Positions 10,040-31,261 of a stretch of DNA of 32,582 nt are shown in pieces; within the stretch, counting starts at the first letter, position 1; each line of letters begins with the position of its first letter. The stretch covers positions 1 through 32,582 of the forward strand of contig JAJQCH010000028.1 of assembly GCA_021202795.1 (NCBI GenBank), in the 5' to 3' direction. The notes under the pieces are model-generated. The model was not told the DNA's origin. It saw nothing but the letters and a program-made list of their open reading frames with translations, and did not search any database. This DNA comes from Oscillospiraceae bacterium. GTDB taxonomy: Bacteria > Bacillota > Clostridia > Oscillospirales > Oscillospiraceae. A program made the position numbers and the translations under genes.

Positions 10040-10160
10040 GCGCACGGTCTATGATGATGGCCGACCGAGGACTCTCTGGGCTTTGGCGGTGCAAGGAATT
10101 AGTGACACTTTTAAGGTAAGCTTCTGCCCCTTGTGTGGCCGCGACCTGCGGGGGACGTGA
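10026..10160 (+). CDS. Small zinc-knuckle protein, 44 aa
   Basis: MLLYKRTVYDDGRPRTLWALAVQGISDTFKVSFCPLCGRDLRGT, ATGA overlap with next gene. Confidence 0.45.
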   Translation: MLLYKRTVYDDGRPRTLWALAVQGISDTFKVSFCPLCGRDLRGT

Positions 10161-10777
10161 TGGACTGGTGGAGGACGCAGCACGGGCAGCACATCCGGAG
10201 ATACATCGGCATCATCGGGCTGGAGCTGGTAATCATCATGGTGCTGGTGGCGGTCAACAACCGGCCCGAACGCGAGACGGCAGAGCCGGAGGCGACCGCC
10301 ACCTATGAGCCGCTGGTGCTATACGCCACCGTGGACGCCCACGCAACGGACGCGGAGCCGGTGACTACTTATTACGATGTCCCCCTGTCGGAGGATGTGC
10401 AGGATGAGCTGTTTGCCCTGTGCGAGGAATACGACCTCGACCCGTCCCTGGTGCTGGCGATCATCGAGGTTGAGAGCGGCTTCGACGCGGATGTCATATC
10501 ATCCACCGATGATTATGGTCTGATGCAGATCAACAGCTCCAATTTTGAGTGGCTGGCGGAGGAGCTGGGCATCATTGATTTTTTGGAGCCGACCCAGAAT
10601 CTCCGGGCCGGGTGCTATATCCTGTATCAATGTTTGCAGATGACGGACGGAGAGACGGACAAGGCCCTGATGATCTACAACATGGGCCTTTCCGCCGCAT
10701 CCGAGGCGTGGGAGCTGGGCGTGACAGGGACGAGCTACACAAGGGCAGTATTGGAGGTGATGGAGGATTATGCTTAG
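10160..10777 (+). CDS. Membrane-anchored lytic transglycosylase (SLT domain)
   Basis: N-terminal TM (IIGLELVIIMVLVAV) then 'YDLDPSLVLAIIEVESGFDADVISSTDDYGLMQINSSNFEWL'. Confidence 0.85.
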   Translation: MDWWRTQHGQHIRRYIGIIGLELVIIMVLVAVNNRPERETAEPEATATYEPLVLYATVDAHATDAEPVTTYYDVPLSEDVQDELFALCEEYDLDPSLVLAIIEVESGFDADVISSTDDYGLMQINSSNFEWLAEELGIIDFLEPTQNLRAGCYILYQCLQMTDGETDKALMIYNMGLSAASEAWELGVTGTSYTRAVLEVMEDYA

Positions 10778-10868: not shown

Positions 10869-10974
10869 AAAGAGCCGCCCCCGGTGTGCGGAACACCAGA
10901 GACGGCAAAAGGTAATAACGATGTACGCATATTATAGCACACAAAATTTTAAAAATCAACTGGAGGTAAAAACG

Positions 10975-11568
10975 ATGAAAACCATGAAAGTGCGGCTGAC
11001 GTTTGTGGAGGGGTTGCTTGGGACAAGCCCCGCCGACCAGGAGGTATACACCACTTATGTCGGGTCGAAGGCCCCGGACGCGGCAACGCTGGAGGAAGAA
11101 GTGGCCGCGTTGGGTGCGGATGAGGTTGTTGAGAACACCATGACGGTATTTCCCCGCGATGTAGATGGCAGGCCCTTTTTGTACGATTATCAGATTAAGG
11201 GATTTTTTAAGGACACCTGCGGCGGTTTGCGGCGAGTAAAAAGCACCAAGAGCGCGGGGCTAAAGGCGTTTAAAAAAGAAATCGACAAGCTGATATTCCC
11301 GTTCCCGCGCCAGATACCAATTAACTTTGTGGGGGAGATAGGCCACTGCCAGCGCCCGCTCCGGGCGTCAACTGCACAGGGCGACCGGGTGGCACTCGCC
11401 AACAGCGAGGAAGTACCAGCGGGTGCGACAGTAGAATTTGAAATCAAGATGTGGTCAGACGACCACGAGGCGTTAGTCCGAGAATGGCTGGACTACGGGA
11501 TTTACTCCGGCATCGGCCAATGGCGCAACAGCGGCAAAGGCCGGTTTGTGTGGGAGGAAATCAGCTAA
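10975..11568 (+). CDS. Conserved phage hypothetical protein
   Basis: GGAGGTAAAAACG RBS before ATG; MKTMKVRLTFVEGLLGTSPADQEVY...GIGQWRNSGKGRFVWEEIS. Confidence 0.75.
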   Translation: MKTMKVRLTFVEGLLGTSPADQEVYTTYVGSKAPDAATLEEEVAALGADEVVENTMTVFPRDVDGRPFLYDYQIKGFFKDTCGGLRRVKSTKSAGLKAFKKEIDKLIFPFPRQIPINFVGEIGHCQRPLRASTAQGDRVALANSEEVPAGATVEFEIKMWSDDHEALVREWLDYGIYSGIGQWRNSGKGRFVWEEIS

Positions 11569-12356
11569 GGCGCTGGGTGGCAATACAGAGCAGGGACGGG
11601 CAATGGCAATGACCTGTAATGACCCACAACGATCCGCAACGGCTTGGCCAGGACTGGAATTGATTCGCAACGGAGTGGCACGGAAATGTCCAGCGGCGCA
11701 AAGGATTGGCAATGTAATGTAATGCGATGGCAAGGCGGCACAATGAGCAGCCCAGCAAAGGATCTGCGGTGATTGGCGGCGCGATGGAAACGCGAAGCCA
11801 GGCCGGGCGTAGCGATGGCGAAGATAAGCTCAGAGGTGCAATGGCAGAGACACGAAAAGCAATGCGAAGGTTATGCATGGCTACGACGAGCTACGCCGAA
11901 GCAACGGAGGTGCGTTGAGTCGCAACGCCCAGAAGTTCTAAGGCAGGGAACGGCATGGAGGATATGCGCATAGCAACGGAATTGCCCGGCATGGTGCTGA
12001 GTGGCACAGTGATGCGGTGGCAAGGCCCGGCTGGGCCGCGCGATGGCATCGGATAGCTTAGACTGGTATGGCCACGCAACGGCAAAGAATCGATGTGCGG
12101 CGGAGGGCAATGGCGTGGCATGGAAAAGCATTGCGAAGGTATAGCGCTGGTAAGGCTTGCGATGGCAATGCGCAGAATCGCTAAGCGTTGAAATGCAAAG
12201 GTTTAGCGAAGCCGAGACGAGTAACGCGACGGACTTGCACAGCGTTGATGCGCAACGGTTATGCTTTCCCCGGCCCAGCAATGGAACTGCTAGTCGATGA
12301 TAAGCAACGGCGCTGCTCTGCGCCGCCCAGTAACGCAGTGGAATACTTAATCAGGA
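11569..12356 (+). repeat. Apparently non-coding array of degenerate GCRAYGG-type words
   Basis: Hand count: GCAA 23 times on + versus TTGC 4; ATGG 14 versus CCAT 0; no RBS-supported ORF. Confidence 0.7.
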
Positions 12357-12366
12357 GGTAATACAG

Positions 12367-15912: not shown

Positions 15913-16680
15913 ATGGCACAGAGCTTTACGGCAATCCCGGCGGAGTATCTGGAGGAAATGGAGGAACTGACCGACGAAGAATACGGGCGGCTTATCCGCG
16001 CCCTCCAGCGGTACAGCATGACCGGCGAAGCGATAACGGCAGAAGGGAATGAACGCTTTTACGCGAAGCGGGTCATGGCCCAGGAAGACCGCTACCAGGC
16101 GAACTATTACGAAGCGGCTCAGAAGCGGGCAAATGCCGGGAAAAAAGGTGCCGCGTCCAGATGGAAAGCAGAGGAAAACTCGCCCGCAGAGGATAGCACC
16201 GCCATATCTGCCAATGGCAAAAATAGCACCGCCATATCTGCCAATGGCAAAAATGGCAATATAGAAACCGAAACCGAAACCGAAATAGAAACTGAAACCG
16301 AAACCGAAACTGATATTACCCCCCTAAAGCCCCCCAAGGGGGGCAAGCGGGGGGAGCGCGACGCGGACTTTGACCGTTTTTGGGCGGCCTATCCTCGCAA
16401 AGTGGGGAAAGAGGCAGCTCGAAAGGCATTTGCAAAGGCTGATGTCCCCATCGATACCCTCCTGACAGCGATAGCAGCCCAGAGGGCCAGCCCCCAATGG
16501 CGAAGAGATGACGGGCAATATATCCCCCAGCCTGCTACATGGCTTAATCAAGGCCGGTGGGAGGATGAAATCACTGCGCCGTCCACGCCAATACAGTCGG
16601 CGGGGCAACCTCCGACCACCAGCGCACGGGCGGAGCTGGAGCGGATGCAGAAGCTGCGTGAGCAGATACGGAGGGGGTAG
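15913..16680 (+). CDS. DUF6291-like phage replication-associated protein
   Basis: EYLEEMEELTDEEYGRLIRALQRYSMTGE N-terminus; 'FDRFWAAYPRKVGKEAARKAFAKA' replication-initiator-like C-terminus. Confidence 0.7.
   Translation: MAQSFTAIPAEYLEEMEELTDEEYGRLIRALQRYSMTGEAITAEGNERFYAKRVMAQEDRYQANYYEAAQKRANAGKKGAASRWKAEENSPAEDSTAISANGKNSTAISANGKNGNIETETETEIETETETETDITPLKPPKGGKRGERDADFDRFWAAYPRKVGKEAARKAFAKADVPIDTLLTAIAAQRASPQWRRDDGQYIPQPATWLNQGRWEDEITAPSTPIQSAGQPPTTSARAELERMQKLREQIRRG
16193..16311 (+). repeat. In-frame 30-bp tandem repeat (x2) followed by GAAACC-type hexamer repeat (x8)
   Basis: AGCACCGCCATATCTGCCAATGGCAAAAAT twice (16195-16254); GAAACC/GAAATA/GAAACT x8 (16264-16311). Confidence 0.95.
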
Positions 16681-18326: not shown

Positions 18327-18447
18327 GGGGCGTCCAGATAGGGCGACGGGCTACCAATCTTTTCCGCTCGCACTGTTGCTTCTTGCTTTCCTTTCGTTGT
18401 GATTTTCTCCTCCCGTCTGATGGCCGTTCAAATCGGCCAGCGCCCCC
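18327..18447 (+). ncRNA. Candidate structured leader/ncRNA with tRNA-like acceptor and T-arm
   Basis: GGGGCGT/GCGCCCC closing stem, GACGGG/CCCGTC stem, GGCCG-TTCAAAT-CGGCC T-arm-like hairpin. Confidence 0.35.
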
Positions 18448-18457
18448 GAAAATAAAA

Positions 18458-19657
18458 ATGGAGCTAAAAATGGAAATAATCAAACGCAAATTAATCGATA
18501 TACGCCCTTACCCAAACAATCCCCGCGTAAATGACAGCGCGGTGGACGCAGTGGCGGAGAGCATCCGGCAATGCACATATATCTCCCCGATAATCATCGA
18601 TGAGGACGGCGTAATCCTCGCGGGCCACACGCGGTACAAGGCCCTGCAAAAACTGGGCGAGACCGAGGCGGAGGTCGTAGTCAAGGCCGGGCTGACCGAG
18701 GAGCAGAAACGGAAATACCGGCTGCTGGATAATAAGACCGGCGAACTTGCGGACTGGGACTCCGACCTGTTAGAGCAAGAGTTAGCCGGCTTAGATTTTG
18801 GCGATTTGGAACTTGACTGGGGGATTGACTTGGACGATGAACCCACAGAAGCAGTCGAGGATGATTACGACGCTGAACCGCCAGAAGAACCACGGGCAAA
18901 GATGGGTGACATCTATCAGCTTGGCAGACATCGGTTGATGTGCGGGGATAGCACAAACGCAGAGGATGTTAAAAAGCTGGTAGGGGGGGTGGCTGTGGAC
19001 ATGCTTCTTACAGACCCGCCTTACAATGTTGCCTTGGGTAACGGCGGCAGTAAAGACGATGCCAGAAAGAGACATAGACGCACTGATGGCTTGGTGATTG
19101 CAAACGATAGTATGCCGCCAGAGGAGTTTCGGAAATTCCTCCAGACAGCGTTTGAGAATGCAAAGAGCGTGATGAAATCGGGAGCGGCATTTTATATCTG
19201 GCATGCAGATAACGAATCATATAATTTCCGTGGTGCTTTGGCAGACGCAGGATTCCAACTGCGGCAGACGCTAATCTGGCTCAAGCAGAGTTTCACGCTT
19301 GGGCGGCAGGATTATCAATGGATTCACGAGCCTTGCCTGTATGGATGGAATGATGGGAGTCACGTTTGGTACTCTGACAGAAAGCAAAGCACGGTTCTGA
19401 AATTTGACAGACCGACAGTGAGCAAAGAACACCCAACGATGAAGCCTGTTGCACTGTTCGATTACCAGATGCGGAATAGCACAAAAGGCGGTGACATCGT
19501 GCTTGACCTGTTTGGCGGTTCTGGCACGACAATCATAGCGGCAGAGCAGAATGGACGCACAGGATATGTTATGGAATACGACCCACGTTATGTGGACGTA
19601 ATCATAGACCGCTATGAGAAATTCACCAACCAAAAGGCGGTAAAGATAGGGAGCTGA
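18458..19657 (+). CDS. ParB-like N-terminal domain fused to N4/N6 DNA methylase
   Basis: IDIRPYPNNPRVNDSAVDAVAESIRQ...VILAGHTRYKAL (ParB-like); TDPPYNVAL and DLFGGSGTTIIAAEQNGRTGY methylase motifs; start could be 18470. Confidence 0.92.
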   Translation: MELKMEIIKRKLIDIRPYPNNPRVNDSAVDAVAESIRQCTYISPIIIDEDGVILAGHTRYKALQKLGETEAEVVVKAGLTEEQKRKYRLLDNKTGELADWDSDLLEQELAGLDFGDLELDWGIDLDDEPTEAVEDDYDAEPPEEPRAKMGDIYQLGRHRLMCGDSTNAEDVKKLVGGVAVDMLLTDPPYNVALGNGGSKDDARKRHRRTDGLVIANDSMPPEEFRKFLQTAFENAKSVMKSGAAFYIWHADNESYNFRGALADAGFQLRQTLIWLKQSFTLGRQDYQWIHEPCLYGWNDGSHVWYSDRKQSTVLKFDRPTVSKEHPTMKPVALFDYQMRNSTKGGDIVLDLFGGSGTTIIAAEQNGRTGYVMEYDPRYVDVIIDRYEKFTNQKAVKIGS

Positions 19658-28357: not shown

Positions 28358-28602
28358 CGGCATTTATACGATTTGCACAAGCCCAGTTGGCGGAGCGCCG
28401 CCGGGCTAACGCATATCAGACCTACGTCACGGACGCGCTGCAAATTATCGCCGAGAACACCGCCAAAATCGGCGGTGGGAAATACCTAAAGGGCCGGTAT
28501 ATCGACCTTATAACCCCGCATAAAGCGCCGGTAAAGGACACGCGGACGGGCGAGGAGATAGCGGCGGACATCATCCGCAAAATTGCGAGGGAAGGAGGGT
28601 AA
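27959..28602 (+). CDS. Tail assembly chaperone gpGT-like -1 frameshift fusion
   Basis: -1 frame open from the slippery site: ...FF|LDGAERQFLWLCVGEYRGPQSVTAFIRFAQAQLAERRRANAYQTYVTDALQIIAENTAKIGGGKYLKGRY...; ORF track lists only the 28387-28602 part. Confidence 0.82.
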
Positions 28603-28603
28603 T

Positions 28604-31261
28604 ATGGACTTATTTGACCTGTATGCATCGATAACGCTAAAGACTGATGATTACGAACAGGGGATAAACAATGCTATGTCCAGCGCGTCCTCTGTGGCGG
28701 AGGCGCTAGAGGGTATAGGCGACGCGGCAAGCACCGCAGAGGACGGCCTTGGCGCAACTGGTGCCGCTGGCGACGACGCGGCCAGTGGGCTGGACTCTGC
28801 CGGAGATTCTGGCAGTGATGCGGCTGGAGGAATCGGCGAAGTTGGAGACGCCAGTAATGATGCGGCGGATAGCTTAACCGCAGCGGGAGAAGCGGCGGAA
28901 GACGCTGACGGAAAATTTAGCGCGTTGGATTTGACCGCGGCCTCCCTGGCGGCAAACGGGCTAACGTCTATTATTAGCTCCCTCGGCGATGTAATTACCG
29001 ACAGCGTGACCGCCGGGGACACAATAGATAAGCAATCACAGGCCGTCAATATGTCCGCCGAGAGCTACCAAAAATGGGTGTATGTCATGGAGCTTTGCGG
29101 CGGAAGCTCTAGCACATTAACAACTGCGACGCGTACACTGTCCAACGTTATAACCGACGCAGGCGACGACAGCGAGACAGCAAACGACAAACTGGCCGCG
29201 ATTGGCCTCACTTACGAGGACTTAGCAGATTTAAGCCCTGAAGACCAACTATATGAGGTCGTGACCGCGTTGCAAAAAATGGAACCGTCGGCGGAGAGGA
29301 CGGCGGCGGCACAGGACTTGCTTGGGCGGTCGTCCCAAACTGTGGCGGCGCTGCTAAACTCTACGGCTGACGAGCTGGATAGTATGATGGATGCCTGCGA
29401 CGAGTATAACCTCATTGTCAGCGATGACACCGTTGCAGCATCGGCAGAATTAAATGACTCAATCACCACATTAAAAACGGCGTTCTCAACATTAACGTCC
29501 AACTTAGCGGGTGAGGTCATGCCTGGCCTGTCAGACCTCATAGATTTTATAACTGGGGATGTTCTGGGCGGCTTTTCGGACGTAATCAACGGTACGGCGG
29601 AAGTTGACGAAGTGCTGACGAATATATTTTCTGGATTGACTGAAATCGCCGGTGATGCGCTTGCGTCTATAGTTGATGCTGTGGGAGAGATTATCCCCGG
29701 ACTGGTGGAGGCGTTACCAGAGATAATCACAACTATAGTTGATTTTTTGACCGACAGCGTTCCGGATATTCTGGACGCGGCGTTGGAAATGCTGATGGGC
29801 ATTGTTGACGCCATCCCGGAGGCAATAACCGGGATAATCGAGGCATTGCCGGATATTATCTCCAGCATAAGCGATTTTATAACCAATTCCAGCGGGTCTA
29901 TTATGGACGCGGCCATAGAGATGCTTAACGGCATTATAGATGCTATCCCAGACATAATATCCGCACTTATCGAAAATCTCCCGGACATCATCGAGAACAT
30001 TGTGTCGTTTTTGGGCAACAATGTCGGCACGATATTGGAGGCCGGAGTCGAACTGCTGTGGGCCATAATCGATGCTATCCCGGAGATTGTAACGGGGCTG
30101 GCCGAGGCTGTCCCCGACATCATCAGCGGGATTGTCGAGGGTCTTTTGGCGGGCGTGTCCGATGTGTGGGACGCGGCCAAAGAGCTTGGAAGTAGCATAC
30201 TGGACAGCGTCAAGTCCTTTTTCGGCATTTCCAGCCCCTCCACAGTGATGGAGAAGCAGGGCGAATATATTGTCGAGGGCCTTATCAACGGCATGGAAGA
30301 TATGCCGGAGGAATCTGACGAGATATTGCAGGACACCCTGGACAAGGTGGTGGAGTTTGGCGATGATGGTGGGGACGAGGCGACAACAGGCGGAAACAAA
30401 ATCCTAACAAATCTCAAAAACGCAATATCCGGCCTGCCGTCGACCATGAGTACAACCTCCGGCAATGCCATGAGTAATTTTATTGGCAAGATAACTGGCA
30501 ATCTATCTAATGTGACGTCCTCGGCCAAGTCGGTATACACCAAGGTCAAGGATGCCGTGTCCGGGTTGCCGGAGACGCTAAACAATACCTCTAGCAGCGC
30601 TATGAGTAAGTTTATTGCTCAGATTAACAGCAACCTGAGCAATGTTACTTCGGCTGCAAAGACGATATTTAACAACGTGAGCGGGGCGCTTGAGACGCTA
30701 CCTGATACTTTGGGGACAACCGCGGGAAACGCAATGATTGATTTAAAAAATGCGATTACGGGGGCCGCGTCAAGCGTATCATCGGCGGCCCAGGACATCG
30801 CGTCCAGGGTGTCCAGCCCGTTGTCGGGCCTTAAGTCCAGCGCGTCAAGCTGGGGGACAGATTTGATGTCCAATTTTATCAGCGGCATTAAAAGCAAATT
30901 CAGCGCGTTGTCGAGCGCGGTGTCCAGTGCTGCCAGCACGGTTAAGTCTTACCTCGGATTCTCCGAGCCGGACGAGGGGCCGTTATCTAATTTCCATACG
31001 TTTGCGCCGGATATGATGGAGCTATTCGCAGAGGGCATCTATGATAACCAAGGGCTTATAACGGACGCAATAGATGACGCTTTTGACATTTGCGACCGCG
31101 TAAGCACGGCGACGGCAAGCACCTCCAAGGCGGCAGGTGCCGGGATGACGATTAACATTACCGTCAACGGAGCGCAATATGATAACGTGGACGAGCTGAC
31201 AGATCAAATTGCGAACAAGCTACAAAAGATTTTGACCAGGAAGGAGGCAGTCTTTGCATAA
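28604..31261 (+). CDS. Tail tape measure protein
   Basis: Long protein with repeated hydrophobic/helical segments; position; GGAGGGTAAT RBS. Confidence 0.95.
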   Translation: MDLFDLYASITLKTDDYEQGINNAMSSASSVAEALEGIGDAASTAEDGLGATGAAGDDAASGLDSAGDSGSDAAGGIGEVGDASNDAADSLTAAGEAAEDADGKFSALDLTAASLAANGLTSIISSLGDVITDSVTAGDTIDKQSQAVNMSAESYQKWVYVMELCGGSSSTLTTATRTLSNVITDAGDDSETANDKLAAIGLTYEDLADLSPEDQLYEVVTALQKMEPSAERTAAAQDLLGRSSQTVAALLNSTADELDSMMDACDEYNLIVSDDTVAASAELNDSITTLKTAFSTLTSNLAGEVMPGLSDLIDFITGDVLGGFSDVINGTAEVDEVLTNIFSGLTEIAGDALASIVDAVGEIIPGLVEALPEIITTIVDFLTDSVPDILDAALEMLMGIVDAIPEAITGIIEALPDIISSISDFITNSSGSIMDAAIEMLNGIIDAIPDIISALIENLPDIIENIVSFLGNNVGTILEAGVELLWAIIDAIPEIVTGLAEAVPDIISGIVEGLLAGVSDVWDAAKELGSSILDSVKSFFGISSPSTVMEKQGEYIVEGLINGMEDMPEESDEILQDTLDKVVEFGDDGGDEATTGGNKILTNLKNAISGLPSTMSTTSGNAMSNFIGKITGNLSNVTSSAKSVYTKVKDAVSGLPETLNNTSSSAMSKFIAQINSNLSNVTSAAKTIFNNVSGALETLPDTLGTTAGNAMIDLKNAITGAASSVSSAAQDIASRVSSPLSGLKSSASSWGTDLMSNFISGIKSKFSALSSAVSSAASTVKSYLGFSEPDEGPLSNFHTFAPDMMELFAEGIYDNQGLITDAIDDAFDICDRVSTATASTSKAAGAGMTINITVNGAQYDNVDELTDQIANKLQKILTRKEAVFA

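Follow-up and report, generated by a model that had tools for sequence, protein, structure and literature searches.

A putative VIPR-type RNA-guided system with a pentanucleotide array beside a Cas7-like gene in an Oscillospiraceae prophage

The stretch of DNA analysed here (hereafter the window) comprises 32,582 nucleotides of an Oscillospiraceae bacterium (contig JAJQCH010000028.1 of assembly GCA_021202795.1), and very probably carries on a prophage an RNA-guided system of the VIPR type, in which a Cas7-like protein and a tandem-pentanucleotide guide RNA act against competing mobile elements. VIPR (Viral Interference Programmable Repeat) systems consist of phage RAMP proteins and of vrRNAs with 9–16 repeats of YNNGG, whose NN bases pair with DNA while one target base per repeat is left out, and are used against satellites and rival prophages, as described in a preprint (PMC13142463). 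We place the window system with VIPR because the RAMP protein of Escherichia phage SUSP1 aligns over its full length with the RAMP family of the window, and because the arrays share a G-pyrimidine core. The array of the window follows a 5-nt lattice that is conserved among its relatives, is obligately linked to a RAMP gene on the same strand, and turns over fast in its variable bases and in whole groups.

A pentanucleotide lattice punctuated by hexamers

The initial annotation of this DNA had described a strand-asymmetric array of short related words between two early genes, and its counts are exactly reproduced at positions 11569–12366, where GCAA occurs 23 times against 4 for TTGC, and ATGG 14 times against 0 for CCAT. 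The word GCRAYGG is found 17 times on the forward strand and 0 times on the opposite strand of this region; the forward count is 17-fold the expected 1.0 and was reached in 0 of 1000 dinucleotide shuffles, which bears out the claim that the array is not noise. The first canonical punctuating word is GCAATGG at 11600–11606, followed by words starting at 11636, 11667, 11698, 11724, 11755, 11781, 11812, 11838, 11864, 11901, 11973, 12040, 12076, 12107, 12133, 12159, 12195, 12226, 12252, and 12278, and the last is GCAACGG at 12304–12310 (all on the forward strand).

The successive spacings of GCRANGG are 26, 31, or 36 nt, i.e., 5n+1, in 18 of 21 cases, and the remaining three are 37, 67, and 72 nt, each with a hexamer variant inside according to the model segmentation given below. 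Autocorrelation, a check that the initial annotation had proposed, revealed a 5-nt order that it had not described: the unsupervised peaks lie at 5, 10, 26, 31, 36, 41, 52, 57, 62 nt, and so on, a 5-nt series broken by +1 steps. When read in register, each GCRANG is followed by 4–6 pentamers with an initial G, the unit being G-Y-N-N-N with Y mostly C. The relatives show the same order, with G at each fifth base in 83–97% of cases and then mostly C (76, 128, and 71 units of 26, 31, and 36 nt, respectively).

For segmentation, we used a two-module hidden Markov model (HMM) trained on the relatives by Baum-Welch, which yielded a pentamer of G(.91)-C/A/T-N-N-N and a hexamer of G-C-A-A-N-G. Because its starting point was weakly seeded with G then C, the independent support for the lattice comes from the unsupervised autocorrelation. 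The trained model divides the putative guide-RNA (vrRNA-like) array of the window, at 11564–12345 on the forward strand, into 123 five-nt and 28 six-nt units in 28 groups, and places the start of the lattice at the stop codon of the gene at 10975–11568. The mean pitch derived from the spacings of 26, 31, and 36 nt is 5.17 nt, near half a turn of B-DNA.

The array has no match in Rfam, in agreement with the earlier view that it corresponds to no named element. Nucleotide BLAST gave no convincing match to it among deposited phages and no second copy in its own genome. The gene after the array has a ribosome-binding site, AGGAGG, at 12353–12358 on the forward strand, and since a scan found no clear terminator between the two, the array is probably co-transcribed with this gene.

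The adjoining gene encodes a predicted Cas7-like protein

The gene directly upstream of the array (10975–11568, forward strand, preceded by a ribosome-binding site GGAGG at 10962–10966 on the same strand) lay outside the finding of the initial annotation. Based on a 57-row alignment, profile comparison, AlphaFold2, Foldseek, and hhalign, its 197-aa product is a stand-alone RAMP, or Cas7-like, protein resembling Vipr, with a C-terminal G-loop motif (GIGQWRNSGKGRF) that is conserved in the 57 sequences. Searches of this protein against Pfam, PHROGs, and NCBIfam returned weak Csm4 and Cas6 hints and nothing stronger, and the NCBIfam csm4 model is weakly matched by 13 members of the family (best E 0.0016). 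The profile of 57 sequences matches PDB entries of a type VII Cas7 (E 0.001; an identity that rests on how Foldseek describes the same entries) and of Csm4 (E 0.016). The AlphaFold2 model (pLDDT 88, pTM 0.82) was compared with the PDB using Foldseek, and each of the best 50 matches is a CRISPR RAMP protein, in most cases Cas7/Csm3 (best E 4e-8), with a probability of 1.00 and TM of about 0.5–0.6 for Cas7 and Csm3 chains. The protein is therefore predicted to have a Cas7/Csm3 fold.

The locus lies in a prophage with a serine recombinase and an S24 repressor. The RAMP gene is present in 2 of 35 genomes of the window's own genus; in the second of these, 12 of 12 array groups are common to L199, a locus of an uncultured Oscillospiraceae MAG, and, the contigs being of equal length, it looks like the same contig, which hints at the host family. 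Elsewhere in the window, a gene resembling phage transglycosylase families is found directly upstream of the RAMP gene (10133–10777), an early-region position that is unusual for lysis or tail enzymes. A gene containing DUF6291 includes tandem repeats at 16193–16310 (a 30-nt unit repeated 2.2 times, then eight copies of GAAACC) that probably form a linker, and a fusion of a ParB-like N-terminal domain to a DNA methylase is encoded at 18383–19657, just before the packaging genes.

Linkage of the array to the RAMP gene

Relatives of the RAMP protein are encoded on 68 viral contigs, and a profile scan of GTDB contigs added 63 further loci, mostly from Clostridia MAGs, and also from Coriobacteria, Synergistaceae, Saccharibacteria, and others, the odd host taxa being uncertain owing to MAG binning. 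An array adjoins the RAMP gene on the same strand in 144 of the 151 RAMP loci collected from viral contigs and bacterial and archaeal assemblies, and on the opposite strand in 0. It lies downstream in 96 loci, upstream in 30, on both sides in 18, and is missing in 7, of which five are cut by a contig end and the others are L255 and L249; by eye, a degenerate GY-type array is visible upstream of the gene in L255. The arrays are 73–1641 nt long (median 540), and the median distance from the RAMP stop codon to the array is 3 nt. On the RAMP gene tree, the position of the array relative to the gene switches at least 38 times (by parsimony on a quick gene tree) and its strand never does, a pattern that fits an RNA read together with the RAMP gene.

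The reverse comparison gave the same association, as an array was found in 0 of 88 loci without a RAMP gene (about 1.3 Mb of phage, prophage, and host DNA). Two loci fetched for another gene (L330 and L332) happen to carry the RAMP gene, and both have an array; three more array-positive loci were left out of this test, having been fetched because of their RAMP gene. Among the matches listed in a scan for the array pattern alone, nearly all strong ones adjoin a RAMP gene.

The initial annotation had suggested an origin of replication or recombination linked with the downstream Gp157/annealase module. This suggestion does not agree with the wider comparison, in which the constant partner across the 151 relatives is the upstream RAMP gene, and neither Gp157, Sak, NinB, nor SSB is constant. 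No other constant neighbour family was found among these loci, SSB as the commonest real neighbour being near 29 and NinB near 10 of them. Gp157 used as an anchor led to one distant viral locus, and no array is present there.

Some arrays were seen apart from a RAMP gene. A long one with 31 hexamers (L111:606-1563) lies upstream of portal-side genes on a piece that has no RAMP gene and whose contig may end before it. Short arrays with the same lattice occur at L110:2787-2880 (-) and L180:5744-5852 (-), with no RAMP gene on the fetched stretch, and are possible orphan guides; after the L180 array come a terminator-like hairpin and a T run. An array-like match without a RAMP gene in L135 proved to be a simple repeat.

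Sequence turnover and array variants

Between orthologous arrays (seven pairs), the first pentamer position, which holds the invariant G, changes in 0.8% of cases vs. 3.0–4.6% at the other four positions, which thus change 4–6 times faster, and the first and sixth hexamer positions change in 0% and 0.6%, respectively. Gain and loss affect entire groups, near relatives alone have identical groups in common, and each phage lineage has arrays of its own. Two loci with divergent RAMP relatives (L251 and L221) have units of GTNNN rather than GCNNN as judged by eye, the second base being C or T by lineage, which implies that the second unit position is pyrimidine-like and that the common core is G-Y. 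Very regular arrays, with nearly all units GCNNN, are found at L116:3349-4165 (-) and L157:6256-7178 (-), and would lend themselves to structural studies or to work on the code. The arrays of L073, L116, and L157 appear by eye to end before a GC-rich hairpin.

Target searches and alternative explanations

We searched 2.2–3.2 Mb of DNA from related phages and prophages for natural targets, using all arrays decoded with codes of 2, 3, and 4 bases at target periods of 2–7, and found none, with no convincing excess over a control of shuffled pentamers. Exact searches with 20 two-base decoding rules, BLAST of decoded triplets, and mismatch-tolerant decoded BLAST likewise gave no target, the one high match in the last being A-rich low complexity. 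A wider grid of 2–4-base rules with three hexamer treatments reached a best z of 3.8 in about 180 tests, and the matches do not extend. Exact scans of IMG/VR for three guides gave no match, and a scan of 301 genomes gave 2, the same as the control. Because the databases of the decoded searches were small, the failure to find a target counts only weakly against a guide role.

The lack of a target match, together with continuous arrays of up to 1.6 kb and short groups, would also suit an array RNA that is coated by the RAMP protein without acting as a guide and instead forms a scaffold, a decoy, or an RNA sponge, such as an anti-CRISPR bait for host Cas7 or an RNP serving titration or storage, and the linkage to the RAMP gene fits this equally well. 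We consider it unlikely, as a scaffold needs no hypervariable bases, whereas here the lattice stays and the variable positions, like the groups as a whole, are replaced quickly, and RNA of this kind serves as a guide in the closest characterised relatives described in the preprint (PMC13142463). Still less likely is an array of sites in double-stranded DNA, bound every half helical turn by a repressor or by a ParB-like, origin, or recombination protein. Its best point is that the mean step corresponds to 10.3 bp per turn with the hexamers keeping phase, and its early-region location beside Gp157 and Sak would be suitable; however, the array keeps the orientation of the RAMP gene in all 144 loci despite its many changes of position, its constant partner is a Cas7-fold protein from an RNA-binding family, and the hexamer has a conserved sequence of its own rather than being a neutral spacer.

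Two further explanations have very little chance of being correct. ORFs of 50–136 aa overlap the array of the window on both strands, as might be expected of a decayed or repetitive coding region or of compositional noise, but the 5- and 6-nt units shift every reading frame, which upholds the original description of the array as non-coding and implies the absence of a conserved reading frame with low dN/dS; further, the lattice and not the codons is conserved across very distant loci, and dinucleotide shuffles never reach the observed word counts. A self-folding structural RNA or riboregulator, also raised in the initial annotation, would suit a non-coding array between genes, but in addition to the lack of an Rfam match, no inverted repeats were found, and array RNA is no more stably folded than shuffled sequence (z -0.15 +/- 0.15, n = 51).

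Proposed function and comparison with known systems

We favor a guide RNA of the VIPR type, and propose its mode of action by analogy with the systems in the preprint (PMC13142463). The array would be transcribed in the same direction as the early genes and processed, and the Cas7-like protein would polymerise on the RNA, each subunit taking up one 5-nt unit, holding its invariant G-pyrimidine, and leaving the variable bases exposed for pairing. The GCRANG hexamer separates groups of usually 4–6 pentamers and may delimit individual guides. The resulting RNP would recognise the DNA of a competing phage or satellite by interrupted base pairing and repress it. The protein-coating array of the initial annotation was thus the nearest guess, in that there is most probably a coat, formed by the Cas7-like protein on RNA that serves as a guide.

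The system can be defined anatomically by its 5-nt lattice, GCRANG punctuation, the rule of 26, 31, or 36 nt, and its obligate RAMP neighbour, over more than 140 loci. These belong mostly to phages and MAGs of gut and rumen Clostridia, and would extend RNA-guided inter-phage warfare to gut and rumen communities. A more specific and tentative possibility, which we hold to be somewhat improbable, is a VIPR variant with a code and an architecture of its own, in which as many as three bases of each pentamer vary and short guides, set apart by hexamers, follow one another in a single long precursor. If true, the variant would add a second rule for reading such RNA, and its array, a multi-target counterpart of pre-crRNA that changes one group at a time, would resemble CRISPR more closely than the published vrRNAs do. 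The hexamer-delimited groups make the origin of many-guide arrays before CRISPR testable in a small two-part system.

Among the VIPR systems, the preprint describes seven types, RAMP proteins with an RRM core, a G-loop, and a thumb, a consensus of YNNGG "or a related consensus", the inclusion of staggered arrays, and an accessory vap gene that is "typically" present; type II includes Escherichia phage SUSP1 and a Pseudomonas fulva prophage, with vrRNAs of ~100 nt and a structured 3' tail (PMC13142463). In SUSP1, the RAMP gene at 28474–29061 is flanked by YNNGG arrays, and we took it as Vipr from the layout that the preprint describes. In a single hhalign comparison, the window family aligns with this candidate over the full length (E 6e-5, at a probability of only 64%). 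Like type II as described there, the window system has a stand-alone phage RAMP protein of about 20 kDa with a C-terminal G-loop, a tandem-pentanucleotide array adjoining the RAMP gene upstream and/or downstream on the same strand, and a conserved G-Y plus hypervariable bases. Unlike type II, its unit is GYNNN (one invariant G plus Y/H) rather than GGYNN, it has one continuous array instead of separate RNAs with a structured tail, a GCRANG hexamer recurs every 26, 31, or 36 nt, and the groups contain 4–6 pentamers instead of 9–16 repeats, with no tail between them; moreover, it has no constant accessory gene comparable to vap. We did not file it as type II because of its continuous arrays, short groups, and missing tail, which concern features of type II rather than of the whole family, and it may be one of the seven types of the preprint.

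Compared with the Cas7 backbone of class 1 CRISPR systems (type VII Cas7, Csm3), the protein is alike in its predicted fold and C-terminal G-rich loop. Cas7 steps 6 nt per subunit, whereas the unit here is 5 nt; further, no palindromic CRISPR repeats were seen, and none of the neighbouring genes examined could be recognised as a cas gene. TIGR-Tas (tandem interspaced guide RNA) systems also have phage-associated arrays with short variable segments, and their partner is a Nop-domain protein instead of a RAMP protein.
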